From positions 1 to 48,511 of IMG/VR virus record IMGVR_UViG_3300047384_000444: 48,511 nt of DNA; one strand, written 5' to 3'. Below, piece after piece: positions 1,716 to 8,404 of the stretch. The position numbers and the translations under genes are program-made. Positions within the stretch are counted from its first letter, which is position 1. Each line of letters opens with the position of its first letter. Source of the stretch: a virus. The notes beneath the pieces are model-generated. The model ran no database searches. It saw only the letters and a list, made by a program, of their open reading frames with translations, and had not been told where the DNA came from.

Positions 1716-1949
1716 ATGGCAAATAATAGATTACTTCTTTACTCAATTCTGTGGAACCGAATGACTGGCATTTCCGGTGAATATGAAGGACATGTAATTG
1801 ATTCGGATGATGGAGAAAACGATACCCTTGATGAAGCCCGAACGAATGTAGCAACATCGCTACAAGAAACCATTGATGAGTTAATTCTTTTGAAACGTGA
1901 AGTGGAAAAGGAACCAATGAAAAAGCTAAAAAAAAACTACCTAGAGTAA
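1716..1949 (+). CDS. Hypothetical early protein
   Basis: A 77-aa protein with a hydrophobic start (MANNRLLLYSILWNRM), an acidic middle and a basic C-terminus. Residues 43-66 form a plausible amphipathic helix. Its stop codon overlaps the next start (TAATG), so the two genes are translationally coupled. No family recognised. Confidence 0.6.
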   Translation: MANNRLLLYSILWNRMTGISGEYEGHVIDSDDGENDTLDEARTNVATSLQETIDELILLKREVEKEPMKKLKKNYLE

Positions 1950-2284
1950 TGGCTATCAAAAAAATTAAAGTCCAGGTCACGCGTACAGATGAGTACGTCG
2001 TTGAAATTGACGAGGCAATTTACAATGAAGAATGGAGGGAAAAATTTGCAACTGTTTTCTGGCCACTTGAAAGTACAGAGGACATTGCCCAGGATCTCGC
2101 ACAAAAGCAAATGATATCCGGACAGGGTTTCTGGGAAGGATACGGCTTTGTGAAACAAGATGGAAGGCTTTGGTTCCCCATTCATGCACAGAAAGCTACT
2201 GAAGGTTTGAATGTGCGAGTGATCAGTAAGGAAGACTACGAATTTGATATTGAAGAAATAATTGAATCTGAAGTACAAAATTAA
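1949..2284 (+). CDS. Hypothetical early protein, acidic C-terminus
   Basis: A 111-aa protein that starts inside the stop codon of the preceding gene. The N-terminus (KKIKVQVTRTDEYVVEIDE) reads as a beta hairpin, the centre holds aromatic residues (FWEGYGFVKQDGRLWFP) and the tail is strongly acidic. The lone beta-rich shape and early position are common for small host-takeover proteins, but no function can be named. Confidence 0.6.
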   Translation: MAIKKIKVQVTRTDEYVVEIDEAIYNEEWREKFATVFWPLESTEDIAQDLAQKQMISGQGFWEGYGFVKQDGRLWFPIHAQKATEGLNVRVISKEDYEFDIEEIIESEVQN

Positions 2285-2294
2285 CTCAAGAACT

Positions 2295-2501
2295 ATGTCT
2301 GTCCCCATACGATTACTAAGATCAAAAATAAATTTCCTGAATGCTCAATTAGCGGGCTACCATGATTGTGGCTTCTTTTCCCCCGAAGAGATCGCAACAC
2401 TGGCAGCTCCTATTGCCCCCCAGGTTCAGGAGCTACATGAAGAATTAATCCGATTACAAGAAAAGCAAAATACCGGTGCTTTAACCCCCGAAAGACTGTA
2501 G
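2295..2501 (+). CDS. Hypothetical small protein upstream of primase
   Basis: A 68-aa protein from ATG 2295 (MSVPIRLLRSKINFL). A longer reading from 2262 overlaps the previous gene and is less likely. The C-terminal half (QVQELHEELIRLQEK) is a clear short coiled coil. It ends five bases before the primase start and is likely co-translated with it. Function unknown. Confidence 0.6.
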   Translation: MSVPIRLLRSKINFLNAQLAGYHDCGFFSPEEIATLAAPIAPQVQELHEELIRLQEKQNTGALTPERL

Positions 2502-2505
2502 AACT

Positions 2506-5500
2506 ATGCCCTTTATCAAACCAGACATTGTAGAAAAAGTTTTTGAGACTTCAGATTTAGTTGACGTCATCAAGGACTATGTGGCGCTGAAGAAATCAGG
2601 GGCAACCTTGAAAGGCCTCAGTCCTTTTGTAGATGAGAATTCCCCCAGTTTTATGGTGTCTCCATCAAAAGGGATCTGGAAATGTTTTTCCTCCGGGAAA
2701 GGTGGTAATCATGCCGTTTCTTTCCTTAAAGCTAAAGAGGGCTTTTCTTATATCCAGGCTATTGAACACCTTGCTAAAAAATATTCAATCACCATTGAAT
2801 ATGATGATAGCGAATATGCCAAAGAGTGGCAGGAAAAAGAAGAAAAGCGCGAAGAGCTGCGTCCGCTCCTGGAGAGTGTGATTAGGAAATATGAGGAAGA
2901 ATTTGAAAAGCTTCCGGAAGATCACCCGGCCAAGATCGAGGTTTATCAAAAAAGAAAGTACACTCCCGAAATCGTTGACCGCTACAGGATTGGTTATGCT
3001 CCAGGCAGGAAATTCATTTACGATTTGTGTGTGGAAAATGGCAGAAAACTAGATGCCATGGAGCTAGGATTGATAAGTGAGAACGGTGATAAATGGTATG
3101 ACCGGGTAGTTTATCCGCTTATTGACCGTAAAGGAACCAGCTTTTTCCCTGTCGGTTTAGCCGGCCGCCGGTTGACTGAGGATAAGAAGTATGCAAAATG
3201 GATGAACTCTGCAGACAGTGAGCTGTACAAGAAAGATCTCTTTTGGTATGGCCTTGACAAGGCAAGGGAGTCCATTGTAAAACGTGGTGAAGCCTGGTTA
3301 GTTGAGGGCTACAATGATGTAATTGCCTGGCAGGAAAATGGGATCCCGAATACCATTGCTTCCTGTGGAACTGCCATTGCCAGGAAACAAATGAAAGCCC
3401 TCAAGAAACTCGCAGATAAAATCATCTTCTGTTTTGATCCGGATGGTGCCGGGAAAGCTGCTATGCTAAAATATATTCCGGAGTTTATTCGCCAGGGCTT
3501 TCGTGTGCAGATGGTTTTTTTATTCCCAACGCTGGATCCCGATGATTTTGTGAGGTTCTGGGCTCCTTCCATAGAAAAATACGGGCTCAAGGAATTAGGA
3601 ATAAATGTGGAATTCAGGGATGACGGATTCAAATTCCTTATGGAAGAGAGCTTCAAAGGAAAGGATGAAGTAGATATCGCCAAAGAGGCCAAGGAATTAG
3701 CAGGAGTGATCGCCACTATTGAAGACGAAGCTATGCGCGGGATCTATACCGACTGGCTGGCTAAAGAAAGCGGCGTGAAGCTCTCGCAGGTAAAATCCTA
3801 TTTAAAAATAAATTCTGAAGAGAAAAAGAAGATTAGACTGTCCCCCGAAGAGGATGAATTTTACCGTCTCCCCCCGACGGTAAAAGAACCTCTGAACAAA
3901 TTGAAGCCGGTGATAGACAAGTATCAGCTGTTCATGGCTAATAATCAAATCTGGGTGCAGGGAAAAGACGGGCCACCTTATTCTTTTAGGTCTGTTTCTA
4001 ATTTCACAATAGAGATTATTCAGCACATGCAGGATGAAAAATTTCCTATGAAACTGGTACGTGTAAAGAATGTTCATGGAATGGAGCGCATTTTCGATAT
4101 GCAGTCGAGCGACATGAATTCGCCTATGGCTTTTGAAAATGCAGTGACAGCTCACGGGAATTTCCGTTGGAAAGGTGGCCGTAACGAACATGAACTGCTC
4201 AAGACCTTTTTGTTTGACGGAATGGGAACCGGTCGAAAAATAGATGTTTTGGGATGGCAGCCCGAAGGGTTCTGGGTGTGGAACAACAAAATATCTGTTC
4301 CCTCCGGAGAACAAGTTGAACTGGACGCAAACGGTGTCTTCGAAAAAGATGGTGTTTCCTATTACATTCCGTCGGCCAACACCATATACCGGTCGAATAT
4401 ATACAAGTATGAAGCACAGAAGAAAGTTGTTTGTATAGAACCTGCAGTGACTTTCCAGCTTTATACTTCCCAGGTATTGAAGGTTCACCGTAAGCATGGG
4501 ATGATGGGAATTTTGTTTGCTGTGGCCAGTATGTTCCAGGACATCGTGGTTTCGGAACTAAGTTTTTTCCCTATGCTATTTCTGTTTGGCCCGGCTTCTT
4601 CCGGAAAGGATCAGCTGGCCGATGTATGTCAAAGTTTCTTTGGCAATCCGCAGACAGCCATTAACCTGGAAGGCGGGGTTTCGACCATTAAAGCCCAGGT
4701 TCGGGAATTTGCCCAGTTCATGAATACGATCTCCCAACTTTCAGAATACAAAAACGGGGATCCTAAACTGGATGGGGTTTTAAAAGGACTGTGGGACAGA
4801 CGGGGATATAAGCGGGGAAACATTGATAGCCATGTTGGAACCGAAAGTATTCCCATTCTCTCTGCAGTATTGATGACCGGCAACTATGCTCCAGACCAGG
4901 AAGCACTTATTACCAGGTTTATTTGGGAGTTTATGGACAAAACTATTTTCTCTGACGAGGAAATAAAAGAATATGAGAAGCTAAGCGATATGACCAAAAA
5001 GGGGATCAGCGCTTTTACCGATCAATTCCTGAAGCACAGGGCGGCCGTAAAAAACAATTTCAAATATAAATTCAGGGAATTCAAGGCTACGCTTGGGCAA
5101 CGACGTCCGGAGGCGGTTAGTAGAATGGTGGCCAACCTTTCTGTGCTGGGCACATTCTACCAGATGTTCCAAAATGAAATGGAATTCACTTTTACGCACC
5201 AGGAAATGATGGCGCATTTCGAGGAAACTATCGACAAGCAAATGAATAAGATGAGCAGCGCGAGCATAATAAACCGCTGGTGGGATTGCTGGCTTGCTTC
5301 TATGCGTGGAACCATGGCCGATCAGCTTAGAGTTCATCAGGATTTCAAAATATCTGGAGACAAAATCTTTTTCAATTTCACAAGCTGCTATAACAGGATC
5401 TCTCGGCAGTGGTTTTCTCAATATAAAGAGAGCGCTCCTGGGAAGAGTGTAATGATGGAAGCTTTGCAGAATGACGAATCCTGGATAGAAAAGAAGAAAG

Positions 5501-5724
5501 GGGAGCGCCTGGCACCGGGAAGAGACTCAAGGAGTACCAGCGTGTATGTGGTAGACCTTCACAAGATCCCAGTAGAAGAAGAGCTCCAGTTCGCACTTGA
5601 TTTTCAGCTTAATGAAAATTCGCTTTTTGCGAACCAGGGCGGCGACGAGCATAATTCATCTCGACCCCCTGCGACCCCCAATAAAAAAATAAACGGTGAG
5701 AAGGGTGATGAGCTGCCGTTTTGA
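2506..5724 (+). CDS. Primase-helicase (DnaG-like N-terminus, Toprim, C-terminal ATPase)
   Basis: This 1072-aa replication protein has three parts. Residues 1-100 match the DnaG CHC2 zinc-finger region in spacing, but three of the four metal ligands are replaced (S39, V42, S63; only C60 remains), as I recall for flavobacterial host DnaG. A Toprim domain follows with E267 (VEGYND) and the D311-x-D313 motif (FDPDGAGKAA). The C-terminal part contains a Walker A motif, GPASSGKD at 695-702, and resembles DUF927/superfamily-3-type phage helicases. It should make primers and unwind DNA at the phage origin, and the iteron cluster starts at its stop codon. The last residues, GDELPF, resemble the acidic tip of single-strand binding protein. 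No separate DnaB-type helicase is present. Confidence 0.85.
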   Translation: MPFIKPDIVEKVFETSDLVDVIKDYVALKKSGATLKGLSPFVDENSPSFMVSPSKGIWKCFSSGKGGNHAVSFLKAKEGFSYIQAIEHLAKKYSITIEYDDSEYAKEWQEKEEKREELRPLLESVIRKYEEEFEKLPEDHPAKIEVYQKRKYTPEIVDRYRIGYAPGRKFIYDLCVENGRKLDAMELGLISENGDKWYDRVVYPLIDRKGTSFFPVGLAGRRLTEDKKYAKWMNSADSELYKKDLFWYGLDKARESIVKRGEAWLVEGYNDVIAWQENGIPNTIASCGTAIARKQMKALKKLADKIIFCFDPDGAGKAAMLKYIPEFIRQGFRVQMVFLFPTLDPDDFVRFWAPSIEKYGLKELGINVEFRDDGFKFLMEESFKGKDEVDIAKEAKELAGVIATIEDEAMRGIYTDWLAKESGVKLSQVKSYLKINSEEKKKIRLSPEEDEFYRLPPTVKEPLNKLKPVIDKYQLFMANNQIWVQGKDGPPYSFRSVSNFTIEIIQHMQDEKFPMKLVRVKNVHGMERIFDMQSSDMNSPMAFENAVTAHGNFRWKGGRNEHELLKTFLFDGMGTGRKIDVLGWQPEGFWVWNNKISVPSGEQVELDANGVFEKDGVSYYIPSANTIYRSNIYKYEAQKKVVCIEPAVTFQLYTSQVLKVHRKHGMMGILFAVASMFQDIVVSELSFFPMLFLFGPASSGKDQLADVCQSFFGNPQTAINLEGGVSTIKAQVREFAQFMNTISQLSEYKNGDPKLDGVLKGLWDRRGYKRGNIDSHVGTESIPILSAVLMTGNYAPDQEALITRFIWEFMDKTIFSDEEIKEYEKLSDMTKKGISAFTDQFLKHRAAVKNNFKYKFREFKATLGQRRPEAVSRMVANLSVLGTFYQMFQNEMEFTFTHQEMMAHFEETIDKQMNKMSSASIINRWWDCWLASMRGTMADQLRVHQDFKISGDKIFFNFTSCYNRISRQWFSQYKESAPGKSVMMEALQNDESWIEKKKGERLAPGRDSRSTSVYVVDLHKIPVEEELQFALDFQLNENSLFANQGGDEHNSSRPPATPNKKINGEKGDELPF

Positions 5725-5901
5725 GTTTCCAACACATCAACACATTATTTAAATAATTAAGAATGAAAAAGTTAAGTATTAAAAAAGGTGTTGAAAGTGT
5801 GTTGAATGTGTTGGAATGTGTTGGAAGAGGTTTTGAGTTTCAAACACAATCAACACATAAACCGAAATAAGTTACTGAAAATGAGGTGTGTGGATGTGTT
5901 G
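5719..5901. repeat. Iteron cluster, candidate replication origin
   Basis: Eight exact copies of GTGTTG or its complement CAACAC lie within about 175 bp: plus-strand copies at 5788, 5799, 5808, 5818 and 5896, minus-strand copies at 5730, 5738 and 5851. Two long direct repeats, TTTTGAGTTTC followed by an A/C-rich block (5719-5745 and 5831-5858), flank the inner run, where copies recur about every 10 bp. An AT-rich stretch (5747-5787) lies between. The first repeat contains the primase stop codon. TGTGGATGT (5889-5897) is two bases from a reversed DnaA box. This layout, beside a primase and a DnaA-like gene, is typical of an iteron-type origin. Confidence 0.65.
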
Positions 5902-5952
5902 AAACAGACAATAGGAATTAACTATAACGCGAGAGCAACTAAATTTTTTTCA

Positions 5953-6237
5953 ATGGAACTAAATGTAAAATTCAGACAGGCAGTACCGGCAGACTTAAAA
6001 ACGGGTCCCCGGACTCTTAATGTCGGACAGACCTATGCCATTACTAAAGATGATGGAAAAACCGTGAATGGAGTTTTCTCTTTACGAGGAGATGAAGATC
6101 CTTTCATTTTGAAATACTACCTGGATCACGGCTGGCTCCTGGTCCCTGAAAACGATCCAAGTTTTGTGGAGTGGATCCAGGACAACGAGGAGCAGCTATC
6201 CTTGAATACTGATTACATGGAACTAAATCAACAATAA
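5953..6237 (+). CDS. Hypothetical phage protein
   Basis: A 94-aa protein read from ATG 5953 (MELNVKFRQAVPADLK). The open frame extends upstream to 5806, but that part runs through the iteron repeats and is probably not translated. The protein is acidic, with an aromatic-rich middle (FILKYYLDHGWLLVPENDPSF). Its start lies about 50 bp after the last iteron. No family recognised. Confidence 0.6.
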   Translation: MELNVKFRQAVPADLKTGPRTLNVGQTYAITKDDGKTVNGVFSLRGDEDPFILKYYLDHGWLLVPENDPSFVEWIQDNEEQLSLNTDYMELNQQ

Positions 6238-6239
6238 TT

Positions 6240-6419
6240 ATGAACTACAACCCTATAGAAATCGCACTCATCTTGGGGAACTGCAAAACCAAAGATGAAG
6301 TATACCAGGCATGCACAAGCTTTAGGTATCTCATTGACAATGCCAAGCAAAAACATAAACATCTTATGGAGCGCCTGTCCTGCAAAAGGATCAAATATAT
6401 AATTGAAAAACAAAACTGA
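6240..6419 (+). CDS. Small helical protein
   Basis: A 59-aa reading frame starting three bases after the preceding stop and ending in a TGATG overlap with the next frame. The sequence (MNYNPIEIALILGNCKTKDE, then a basic helical half) is plausible as a small soluble protein. Tight spacing on both sides and matching orientation are the main support; there is no family match. Confidence 0.5.
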   Translation: MNYNPIEIALILGNCKTKDEVYQACTSFRYLIDNAKQKHKHLMERLSCKRIKYIIEKQN

Positions 6420-6493
6420 TGCAGGAAATAGTCACTGGAGTGGTACTGGGGATCATCCTTTACCATGCCTTCTTTAAAAATTCAAATCAATAA
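6419..6493 (+). CDS. Tiny membrane peptide
   Basis: A 24-codon frame, MQEIVTGVVLGIILYHAFFK plus four residues, whose ATG overlaps the preceding stop (TGATG). The central 15 residues are hydrophobic enough for one membrane helix, and the end is basic. Coupled tiny membrane peptides occur in phage early regions, but this could also be chance. Confidence 0.4.
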   Translation: MQEIVTGVVLGIILYHAFFKNSNQ

Positions 6494-6512
6494 ATAATCA
6501 AATATAAGCACT

Positions 6513-7004
6513 ATGACTACAATTCGCACTTCAGAATTAAAAGCCTTAAAAAAAGAAGTTGAGAGGGAATTTGATATTCCAGATTTATCATCTAAAAAAA
6601 GATCCGTAAAATATATTTTGGCCCGATCCATTTACTTTAAAATAGTGAGAACCCGTACTGGATTTTCCTATGAGGCCATAGGAAAATTAGCAAACAAGGA
6701 TCACGCAGCAGTCTTCTTTTCGATACAAAAATTTGAAGAATATTTAGAAGCTTATCCTGAATGTGAAAATATATTCAAAAAGCTTTCGGGTAATGAAATC
6801 ATTTTCTCTGATGGTGACGGCTGGAAAAAATATGAGAAAGCTCTCAAGCAAATAGAATCTCTTAAGAACGCCTTGAAGTTAGCCAAAAAAGGGTCCTATA
6901 AGACCTCACACAAACGGCTGTTCGAAATTTTAGATAGTGTTCCAGAAAAACATGTTGAAACCGTCTATACCAGGTTAGAGCCTATAGTAAAAATGCTTCC
7001 GTAA
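6513..7004 (+). CDS. DnaA domain IV-like DNA-binding protein, candidate replication initiator
   Basis: In this 163-aa protein, residues 30-80 align by eye with DnaA domain IV, the DnaA-box-binding helix-turn-helix: VKYILARSIY corresponds to the LAR-containing helix, and FSYEAIGKLANKDHAAV to the signature S-x-x-x-IG-x-x-x-x-x-RDHTTV. The AAA+ ATPase part of DnaA is absent. The remaining 80 residues are basic and helical. It lies 600 bp downstream of the iteron cluster and after the primase, so it may recognise the origin and recruit replication proteins. An AATCAAAT leader precedes the ATG. It could instead be a transcription factor or a competitor of host DnaA. Confidence 0.7.
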   Translation: MTTIRTSELKALKKEVEREFDIPDLSSKKRSVKYILARSIYFKIVRTRTGFSYEAIGKLANKDHAAVFFSIQKFEEYLEAYPECENIFKKLSGNEIIFSDGDGWKKYEKALKQIESLKNALKLAKKGSYKTSHKRLFEILDSVPEKHVETVYTRLEPIVKMLP

Positions 7005-7031
7005 ATAATTTATCAATAATCAAATTTTAAT

Positions 7032-7253
7032 ATGACTATGACTACAGCAAACACATTAAGAAAAATTGGAACGAGCTTAGGAAATCTCATTCCTGCAGGC
7101 TTCTCCTTTAGCCTCATTATTTTCCCAAAGGACCGCCCGGGACTGGGCTGCTACATTTCTACTGCAGACCGGAACCATTCAGTTCACGCGCTTCGCACAG
7201 CTGCCGTGAGACTGCAGAGAAATGAAACCACTAAACCAATTGAAAGTAATTAG
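7032..7253 (+). CDS. Hypothetical small protein
   Basis: A 73-aa protein starting MTMTTANTLRKIG after an AATCAAATTTT leader (7018-7028). The middle is hydrophobic (GNLIPAGFSFSLIIFPKDRP), which may form a buried beta hairpin rather than a membrane helix. It ends four bases before the next start and is surely in the same operon. No family recognised. Confidence 0.55.
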   Translation: MTMTTANTLRKIGTSLGNLIPAGFSFSLIIFPKDRPGLGCYISTADRNHSVHALRTAAVRLQRNETTKPIESN

Positions 7254-7256
7254 GCT

Positions 7257-7916
7257 ATGGCAATTAAACCGATATCATTTAGCACTCCCATGGTTCAGGC
7301 TGAAAGGGCAGGTAAAAAAACTCAGACCAGGAGAACTCAGGGCCTCGAAAAAATAAATGAAGATCCCGATAGATACTTAATTAGGAAAGGAGCTGATGAT
7401 TTTTTTGTAGATGATCTAGAAACTCTAGAGGATTTTGACATCAAACCGAAGTTCAATTCTGGTGATATTCTTTGGGTAAGGGAAACTTGGTTTCCTACCA
7501 GATATGATTATCTGGATATGTTAAGGCGAGGAATTAAACACTTTATAAAGTTTAAAGCGGATAATGATTATGATCCTAAAAAGGATTGTGTGGGGCGATC
7601 CTGGAAACCCTCTATTCATATGCCTAAAATAGTCTGCAGGGAATTTTTGGAAGTTACAGGAGTGAGAGCTGAGCGCCTTCAGGATATTTCTTCCAAAGAT
7701 GCAAAAGCTGAAGGAGCAAAAGATCACTTAAAGCATCATGAAATGGAAATGTTGAAAGATCTTGATTGGATAATTCCTTCTCCTTTTAATGAATTCCAGT
7801 TTGGTTTTCTTTCTATCTGGTGCTCTATCAATGGATGTAAATCCTGGGAAGCAAATCCCTGGGTTTGGGTGTATGAGTTCCGCCGCACTAACAAACCGGA
7901 AAATTTCCTGAAATGA
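7257..7916 (+). CDS. ASCH-like phage protein
   Basis: This 219-aa protein fits a widespread phage family related to the ASCH/EVE RNA-binding fold. Family marks visible here are KPISFSTPMVQA and KKTQTRR near the N-terminus, GDILWVRETW in the middle, SWKPSIHMPK, VRAERLQDIS, and SWEANPWVWVYEFRR at the C-terminus. ASCH proteins are thought to bind RNA or modified nucleotides; the phage members have no settled function. The gene overlaps the next start by four bases. The family call is from memory of the motif string. Confidence 0.75.
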   Translation: MAIKPISFSTPMVQAERAGKKTQTRRTQGLEKINEDPDRYLIRKGADDFFVDDLETLEDFDIKPKFNSGDILWVRETWFPTRYDYLDMLRRGIKHFIKFKADNDYDPKKDCVGRSWKPSIHMPKIVCREFLEVTGVRAERLQDISSKDAKAEGAKDHLKHHEMEMLKDLDWIIPSPFNEFQFGFLSIWCSINGCKSWEANPWVWVYEFRRTNKPENFLK

Positions 7917-8404
7917 AAAACCTACTCTTTTTATTAATTCTGGTTCCGGGGATCTGCGCCGGCCAAAAGGTCAACTGGTTTGAAAAGGAAACCTTCTTTT
8001 TCGTATCAACCGAAGTAGATCCCAGGAATGCCATTTTTGGCAGCCCTGTAAATCCACCGGCTTATGATGGCGTCCTGAACATTGGATATAGAAACCATGG
8101 TTTCCAGATCCAGGCCAGCTACGAGAATTTCAAAGCAATTGATTTCTACTCTTTCGGCTTCCAGGCCGGTCATGTTTTTAACCATGGGGAAGTATGGAAC
8201 TACACTTTGTTAGGTGGCCTTGGATGGATCCAGCGGAATGTGGACTGGATCAAGAACTATCTCTATGCTTCTGCAAGTATTTCGAGCCAGCTGGAATACC
8301 ATTATTACAGCTTCTTTTTATTTGTCCGAGGGGAAGGCCGTTACAGGCATGACCTGGATAAATTCAAACCTTCCGGATATGTCGGGATAGGATATAAATT
8401 TTAA
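7913..8404 (+). CDS. Exported outer-membrane beta-barrel protein (lysogenic conversion candidate)
   Basis: A 163-aa protein with an N-terminal signal peptide (MKNLLFLLILVPGICAG, cleavage near Q18). The mature part consists of alternating polar and aromatic strands (for example YEHYYSF-like and GRYRHDL segments) and ends in GIGYKF, the terminal aromatic typical of outer-membrane barrels. It sits inside the early operon, overlapping the ASCH-like gene by four bases. An exported protein among replication genes suggests a surface change in the infected cell, for example exclusion of related phages or masking of a receptor. That role is inferred. Confidence 0.65.
   Translation: MKNLLFLLILVPGICAGQKVNWFEKETFFFVSTEVDPRNAIFGSPVNPPAYDGVLNIGYRNHGFQIQASYENFKAIDFYSFGFQAGHVFNHGEVWNYTLLGGLGWIQRNVDWIKNYLYASASISSQLEYHYYSFFLFVRGEGRYRHDLDKFKPSGYVGIGYKF

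Follow-up and report, generated by a model that had tools for sequence, protein, structure and literature searches.

The repeat array at 5728-5904 of the viral DNA analysed here is very probably the replication origin of a temperate Bacteroidota phage, and the product of the gene directly upstream of it (2506-5724), a fused primase-helicase of 1072 residues, its initiator. This DNA, hereafter the window, is a 48.5-kb IMG/VR virus record whose two ends carry an HTH regulator and an integrase respectively; it also has genes for an S49 (prohead-type) protease and a tape-measure protein, and on these grounds its phage is a temperate tailed phage. The primase gene of the window is ~43% identical to those of two members of Duneviridae, the Flavobacterium phages laban6-1 and 2A. 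The argument is carried by the observed anatomy of the array, its conservation beside the gene, the fold of the modelled helicase half and the replacement of the iteron word across whole arrays between lineages. The features referred to throughout are as follows, with the basis of each in brackets.

702-1277: GerE-type regulator, upstream of the array; such a regulator lies upstream in many relatives too
2506..5724, plus strand: fused DnaG-type primase and SaPI-Rep/Cch-like helicase, 1072 aa, proposed initiator (Pfam and model)
4588..4611, plus strand: motif GPASSGKD (residues 695-702), which we take to be the Walker A motif of the helicase (conservation in 12 homologues)
5353..5610, plus strand: predicted C-terminal winged helix (residues 950-1035), proposed iteron reader (secondary structure of the model)
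5728..5744, minus strand: block 1, two iteron copies (word copies)
5745..5786: AT-rich spacer 1, 42 bp (array alignment)
5787..5825, plus strand: block 2, four direct iteron copies at steps of 11, 9 and 10 bp (word copies)
5840..5857, minus strand: block 3, two iteron copies (word copies)
5858..5886: AT-rich spacer 2, 29 bp (aligned in 33 arrays)
5876-5884: spacer 2 core TGAAAATGA, TGAWAATCA in most relatives (aligned in 33 arrays)
5887..5904, plus strand: block 4, two direct iteron copies (word copies)
6513..7004, plus strand: DnaA domain IV protein, 163 aa, with a helical C-terminal extension, best read as an accessory gene (HMM and model)

Anatomy of the repeat array

A sequence-only reading of this DNA had proposed an iteron origin at this position, and that candidate is now well supported, the array being real and origin-like. 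The eight exact copies of GTGTTG/CAACAC that it described are present (5730, 5738, 5788, 5799, 5808, 5818, 5851 and 5896, spanning 5730-5901) and represent 8 of the 26 copies in the whole window, while 9 of the window's 37 near-copies of TGTGTTGRA (at most one mismatch) fall within 5728-5903. The top 8-mer count in 5722-5921 is 9, compared with a mean of 4.0 and a maximum of 7 in dinucleotide shuffles and with at most 6 in the other 200-bp segments of the window. Of the two long direct repeats said to flank the copies, one was confirmed as a 19-nt direct repeat (5718-5736 / 5830-5848); the other pair proved to be inverted (5727-5744 / 5887-5904, 18 nt, 89%), and the array is a mixture of direct and inverted copies. 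The cumulative GC-skew minimum anticipated near 5.8 kb does not exist, as the curve climbs almost throughout, and this failure of GC skew to mark the array counts against the origin reading. Nor was the partial likeness of CAACACA to the DnaA box core borne out: no DnaA box within one mismatch occurs in 5000-8000, and the exact box TTATNCACA is absent from the whole window, where 1.8 would be expected. Just after the last iteron block, at 5922-5935, lies a sequence like CTATAACGCGAGAG, which recurs after the arrays of L005, L019, L035, L009 and L057 whatever their iteron word.

Conservation of the array beside the primase-helicase gene

Homologues of the primase-helicase were drawn from IMG/VR, bacterial genomes and isolate phages, and an array of like layout is present in the 38 cases analysed, a set that includes the window and some near-duplicates. 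The layout shared among these Bacteroidota phages and prophages consists of two minus-strand copies, AT-rich DNA, four plus-strand copies, two minus-strand copies, AT-rich DNA with the core, and two or three plus-strand copies. The array begins no more than ~140 bp after the stop of the gene in 36 of the 38 cases (the window and 35 further); the exceptions are the distant L044 and Porphyromonas phage 023a (L048), whose arrays are found 1.1-1.3 kb downstream of it. As in SaPI/PICI replicons, iterons flank AT-rich DNA directly downstream of the proposed initiator gene. The word count exceeds that of ten shuffles of the same DNA in 33 of the 38 cases, and in L006, L019 and L020, where copies are degenerate and counts alone do not rise above shuffles, it is the layout that reveals the array. 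We detected no array near two distant homologues, those of Cellulophaga phage Ingeline_1 and of L060, nor beside the short gene copy L034/L059, and a search of plasmids returned only a weak match (24%) to the C-terminal part, in a Persicobacter record. Spacers vary from 29 to 80 bp across arrays, and an analysis of whether their lengths are phased with the DNA helix gave no more than a hint (R 0.45 at 10.5 bp; the best period was 11.6). The spacer 2 core TGAWAATCA is kept in many lineages regardless of the word, and may be a melting element or a site for a host protein.

The position of the array between two early-operon genes, together with the GerE-type regulator found upstream in many relatives, might instead indicate an operator or promoter for the downstream early genes, bound by that regulator (702-1277) or by another repressor. 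We consider this improbable. A homologue of the regulator is undetected in the array-bearing L020-L022, L025, L028-L031 and L033, and the array persists where it would have no close co-directional gene to control: L020, L029 and L031 have no co-directional ORF of at least 70 aa within 700 bp after it, and in L022 the next ORF of at least 70 aa is convergent. The region also shows no promoter-like excess, in a scan that does not cover Bacteroidota promoters. Among the early genes of the window, the 219-aa gene at 7257-7916 matches phrog_874 (unknown function, E 2.6e-54); its place relative to the primase gene is not constant, some relatives having it upstream and others downstream.

The primase-helicase as proposed initiator

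The 1072-aa protein carries the Pfam domains Zn_ribbon_DnaG, DNAG_N and Toprim, making its primase DnaG-type. Its second half matches no Pfam family at E 0.1 in 12 homologues, DUF927 included, so that assignment of the helicase rests on the predicted fold. A model of residues 440-1072 (633 residues), built from 28 homologues with a pLDDT of 83, has as its best structural match Cch of SCCmec (5dgk; Z 25.6 over 464 residues), followed by SaPIbov1 Rep (8tch; Z 21.8 over 454 residues). Matches below these two reach a Z of at most 15.4 and are mostly MCM proteins, which cover the ATPase core and are uninformative on the C-terminal domain. Foldseek ranks the model in agreement with this, with Cch and SaPIbov1 Rep well above other matches. 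As judged from this predicted structure, the window encodes an initiator helicase of the Rep/Cch fold, as a SaPI/PICI-type replicon does, and the apparent sharing of this fold by the C-terminal half counts in favor of the origin reading. We accordingly regard the product of 2506-5724 as a fusion in which a primase precedes an initiator-type helicase that has a predicted C-terminal winged helix. Within the putative Walker A motif, G695, S698, G700, K701 and D702 are invariant among the 12 homologues. The modelled fold suggests that the helicase half works like Cch and SaPIbov1 Rep, but outside their sequence family (DUF927). In the Flavobacterium chromosomal elements L028-L031, the primase half (N-terminal 370 residues) is shorter and weakly DnaG-like; the helicase, the C-terminal domain and the array are retained.

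The DnaA domain IV protein

The sequence-only reading had paired the array with the 163-aa protein encoded at 6513-7004, described as DnaA domain IV alone, which would bind the array and mark the origin, leaving its opening to host DnaA or to the primase-helicase. Domain IV itself is genuine. The profile search that had been suggested gave a Bac_DnaA_C match above the curated cut-off (E 7.9e-9, 35.9 bits against 31.5) over residues 14-73, and the model of the protein fits the DnaA domain IV crystals 1j1v and 3pvp (TMt 0.77, rmsd 1.7-2.0). It makes up only part of the protein: after it comes a mostly helical stretch of ~70 residues, some of it in common with Olleya phage Harreka_1. In an alignment by eye, the residues opposite R399, D433 and H434 of DnaA, whose roles are general knowledge, are retained, and because of this the protein may well bind DnaA boxes.

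That the array is bound by this protein is nonetheless highly improbable. In the window 0.6 kb separates the gene from the array, and the retention of residues aligned with D433 and H434 would suit a DNA-binding role, but the array contains no DnaA box and almost every array-bearing relative lacks the gene. No DnaA domain IV was detected in the 13 IMG/VR records from which the first relatives with an array came (L004-L016), in 6 of 8 further IMG/VR records or in 4 of 4 phage records; since such records can be incomplete, single absences are weak, but the overall pattern is consistent. In the two relatives that have both (L036 and L041), the homologue adjoins the tape-measure gene at 12-13 kb upstream of the primase gene, which puts 15-16 kb between it and the array. 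In Harreka_1 the gene lies between those for a single-strand binding protein and a methyltransferase, with no array detected, and among the cases examined only the window has it near an array. Moreover, the iteron word changes between lineages that lack the gene altogether. The proposed pairing is not supported, and both co-occurrence in relatives and the lack of DnaA boxes at the array speak against it; the alternative of opening by the primase-helicase came closer, as the array tracks the primase-helicase gene. This protein is best read as the product of a separate, sporadic accessory gene rather than as the partner of the array, and it may plausibly compete with host DnaA at host boxes.

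Searches of viral contigs with the protein (full length or first 98 residues) found no relatives, and a search of 397 Flavobacteriaceae genomes, run without a positive control, found none at E 1e-6. A 97-aa homologue of the domain adjoins the tape-measure gene in the related phages L052 (10004-10297, minus strand) and L053 (10452-10745, minus strand). The fecal "bacteriophage" record MT837552.1 (L003) was considered as a second case of DnaA with an array and rejected: it encodes a complete 438-aa DnaA (1803-3119), beside which lie TTTTCCACA-like, DnaA-box-like sites at 3200-3420, and it is probably a fragment of a bacterial chromosome.

Turnover of the iteron word

The iteron word differs by lineage, and the plus and minus copies of any one array share one word, as follows.

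GTGTTGRAA or GTGTTGAAA: window, L004-L006, L019
GTGTGGAAA: L007, L020, L035
TGTAAGGAA: L036, L041
TGTTGGATG: L009, L043
TGTCGGGAA: L010
TGTTGAGAA: L026, L027, L040, L045, L046, L058 (laban6-1 has TGTTGAGAA)
GTCGAGAAA: L042
TGTTGGAAG: L021, L022
TGTTGGAAC: L031
TGTAGAAAT: L011-L014, L016, L024
TGTAGGAAA: L015, L025
TGTAGGTTT: L028-L030
TGTGTGCG: L033
TGCAGGAT: L057
TGTCCGAT: L044
TGTTGGAC: L048

Comparison of these arrays shows that relatives keep the repeat layout and have exchanged the word many times, all copies together. It is very hard to credit that the inverted copies are instead paired RNA (a leader, an attenuator or an antisense-controlled element) and the array not protein-binding DNA: its transcript folds better than shuffles (z -3.2) and inverted copies change together between lineages, but RNA pairing needs no likeness among four direct copies at ~10-bp steps, the 29 to 80 bp range of the spacers argues against an RNA element, and the protein encoded next to the array matches helicases for which binding to DNA iterons in this position is known.

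Word distance correlates with whole-protein distance (r 0.58). With overall divergence removed and p obtained by permutation, residues 976-1020 (predicted helix and wing) have the top partial association with the word among the several regions tested (r 0.149, p 0.004), and the AAA+ domain gives r -0.18; given the small size of this effect and the examination of several regions, we take it as no more than supporting evidence. When the window is compared with L004, identity is 91% in the ATPase domain but only 51% in residues 976-1020. One contig of Flavobacterium circumlabens P5626 holds two elements with different words, TGTAGGTTT (L029) and TGTTGGAAC (L031), whose helicase domains are 76-87% identical. 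The same three genes lie ~1.5 kb on in both elements, the last of which starts MNLKHIEKTHTLQLDQSDCGVACL and looks like a peptidase-containing exporter.

We tentatively suggest, as a possibility with less than an even chance of being correct, that origin geometry is frozen while the word, completely and in each of its 8-12 copies, turns over jointly with the surface by which the fused initiator reads it, giving a radiation of mutually incompatible origin codes that are kept diverse by co-resident prophages or by origin-targeting enemies. For the phages considered here, no origin-cutting nuclease is known.

Proposed mechanism and implications

Most likely, the primase-helicase both recognizes and opens the origin. 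From the organization described above we infer binding, melting and replication at the array. In the mechanism we propose, the C-terminal winged helix of the primase-helicase would bind the iterons and, because each AT-rich spacer has oppositely oriented copies to its left and right, helicase assemblies would face each other across the spacer. Their ATP-driven action would then melt one spacer, for which spacer 2, having the conserved core, is the likeliest candidate; the helicase would load itself, and the fused DnaG-type primase would prime the exposed strands for a host polymerase.

For many temperate phages of Bacteroidota, a broad group that includes the Duneviridae isolates laban6-1 and 2A, many prophages and Porphyromonas phages, this provides a candidate for both the origin and its initiator; the literature searched names neither for them, and has nothing specific on origins of Duneviridae or Flavobacterium phages. 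The roughly dozen natural words on one fixed layout represent a data set for how winged-helix initiators change specificity, and also bear on whether word identity governs prophage incompatibility.

Comparison with known systems

The alpha protein of phage P4 (ori, crr) combines primase, helicase and origin recognition in one polypeptide and, set beside the window from general knowledge, is alike in domain order only. Cch of SCCmec (5dgk), the top structural match over residues 33-593 of the 633-residue model, is 11% identical to it and has no fused primase. DnaA domain IV (1j1v, 3pvp) shares fold and HMM with residues 14-73 of the 163-aa protein, which differs from DnaA in lacking the ATPase domain and in its helical extension, and DnaA boxes are absent from the array. 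In the PLE satellites of Vibrio cholerae, iterons vary with the DNA-binding domain of RepA, and a change of iteron can give escape from an origin-cutting nuclease (PMC8263062); the RepA_N initiator is, however, unrelated to that of the window, and PLE has three iterons of ~30 bp.

The closest likeness is to the pri-rep-ori segment of SaPIs and PICIs. The C-terminal domain of SaPI Rep recognizes an iteron origin directly downstream of its own gene (PMC7581432), and in PICIs the origin comes after the genes for primase and initiator, which are fused in some cases, and consists of an AT-rich region with a set of iterons on either side; a cloned segment replicated (PMC6092414). The window has the same predicted helicase fold, an iteron origin candidate directly downstream of the gene, iteron sets flanking AT-rich DNA and a primase fused to the helicase, as these elements have it adjacent or fused. 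It differs in its DnaG/Toprim primase, which is of the AEP type in SaPIbov1 and SaPI5, in its two inverted modules with four copy blocks, and in having no Pfam match to DUF927. Whereas PICI satellites have no virion genes of their own, the window has its protease and tape-measure genes, and the carriers here are complete Bacteroidota temperate phages. The system would therefore carry the replication design of SaPIs and PICIs over to phages whose primase is DnaG-type, and is best described, on its predicted fold and layout, as a SaPI/PICI-like initiator-origin replicon in Bacteroidota temperate phages, a variant of a known design.
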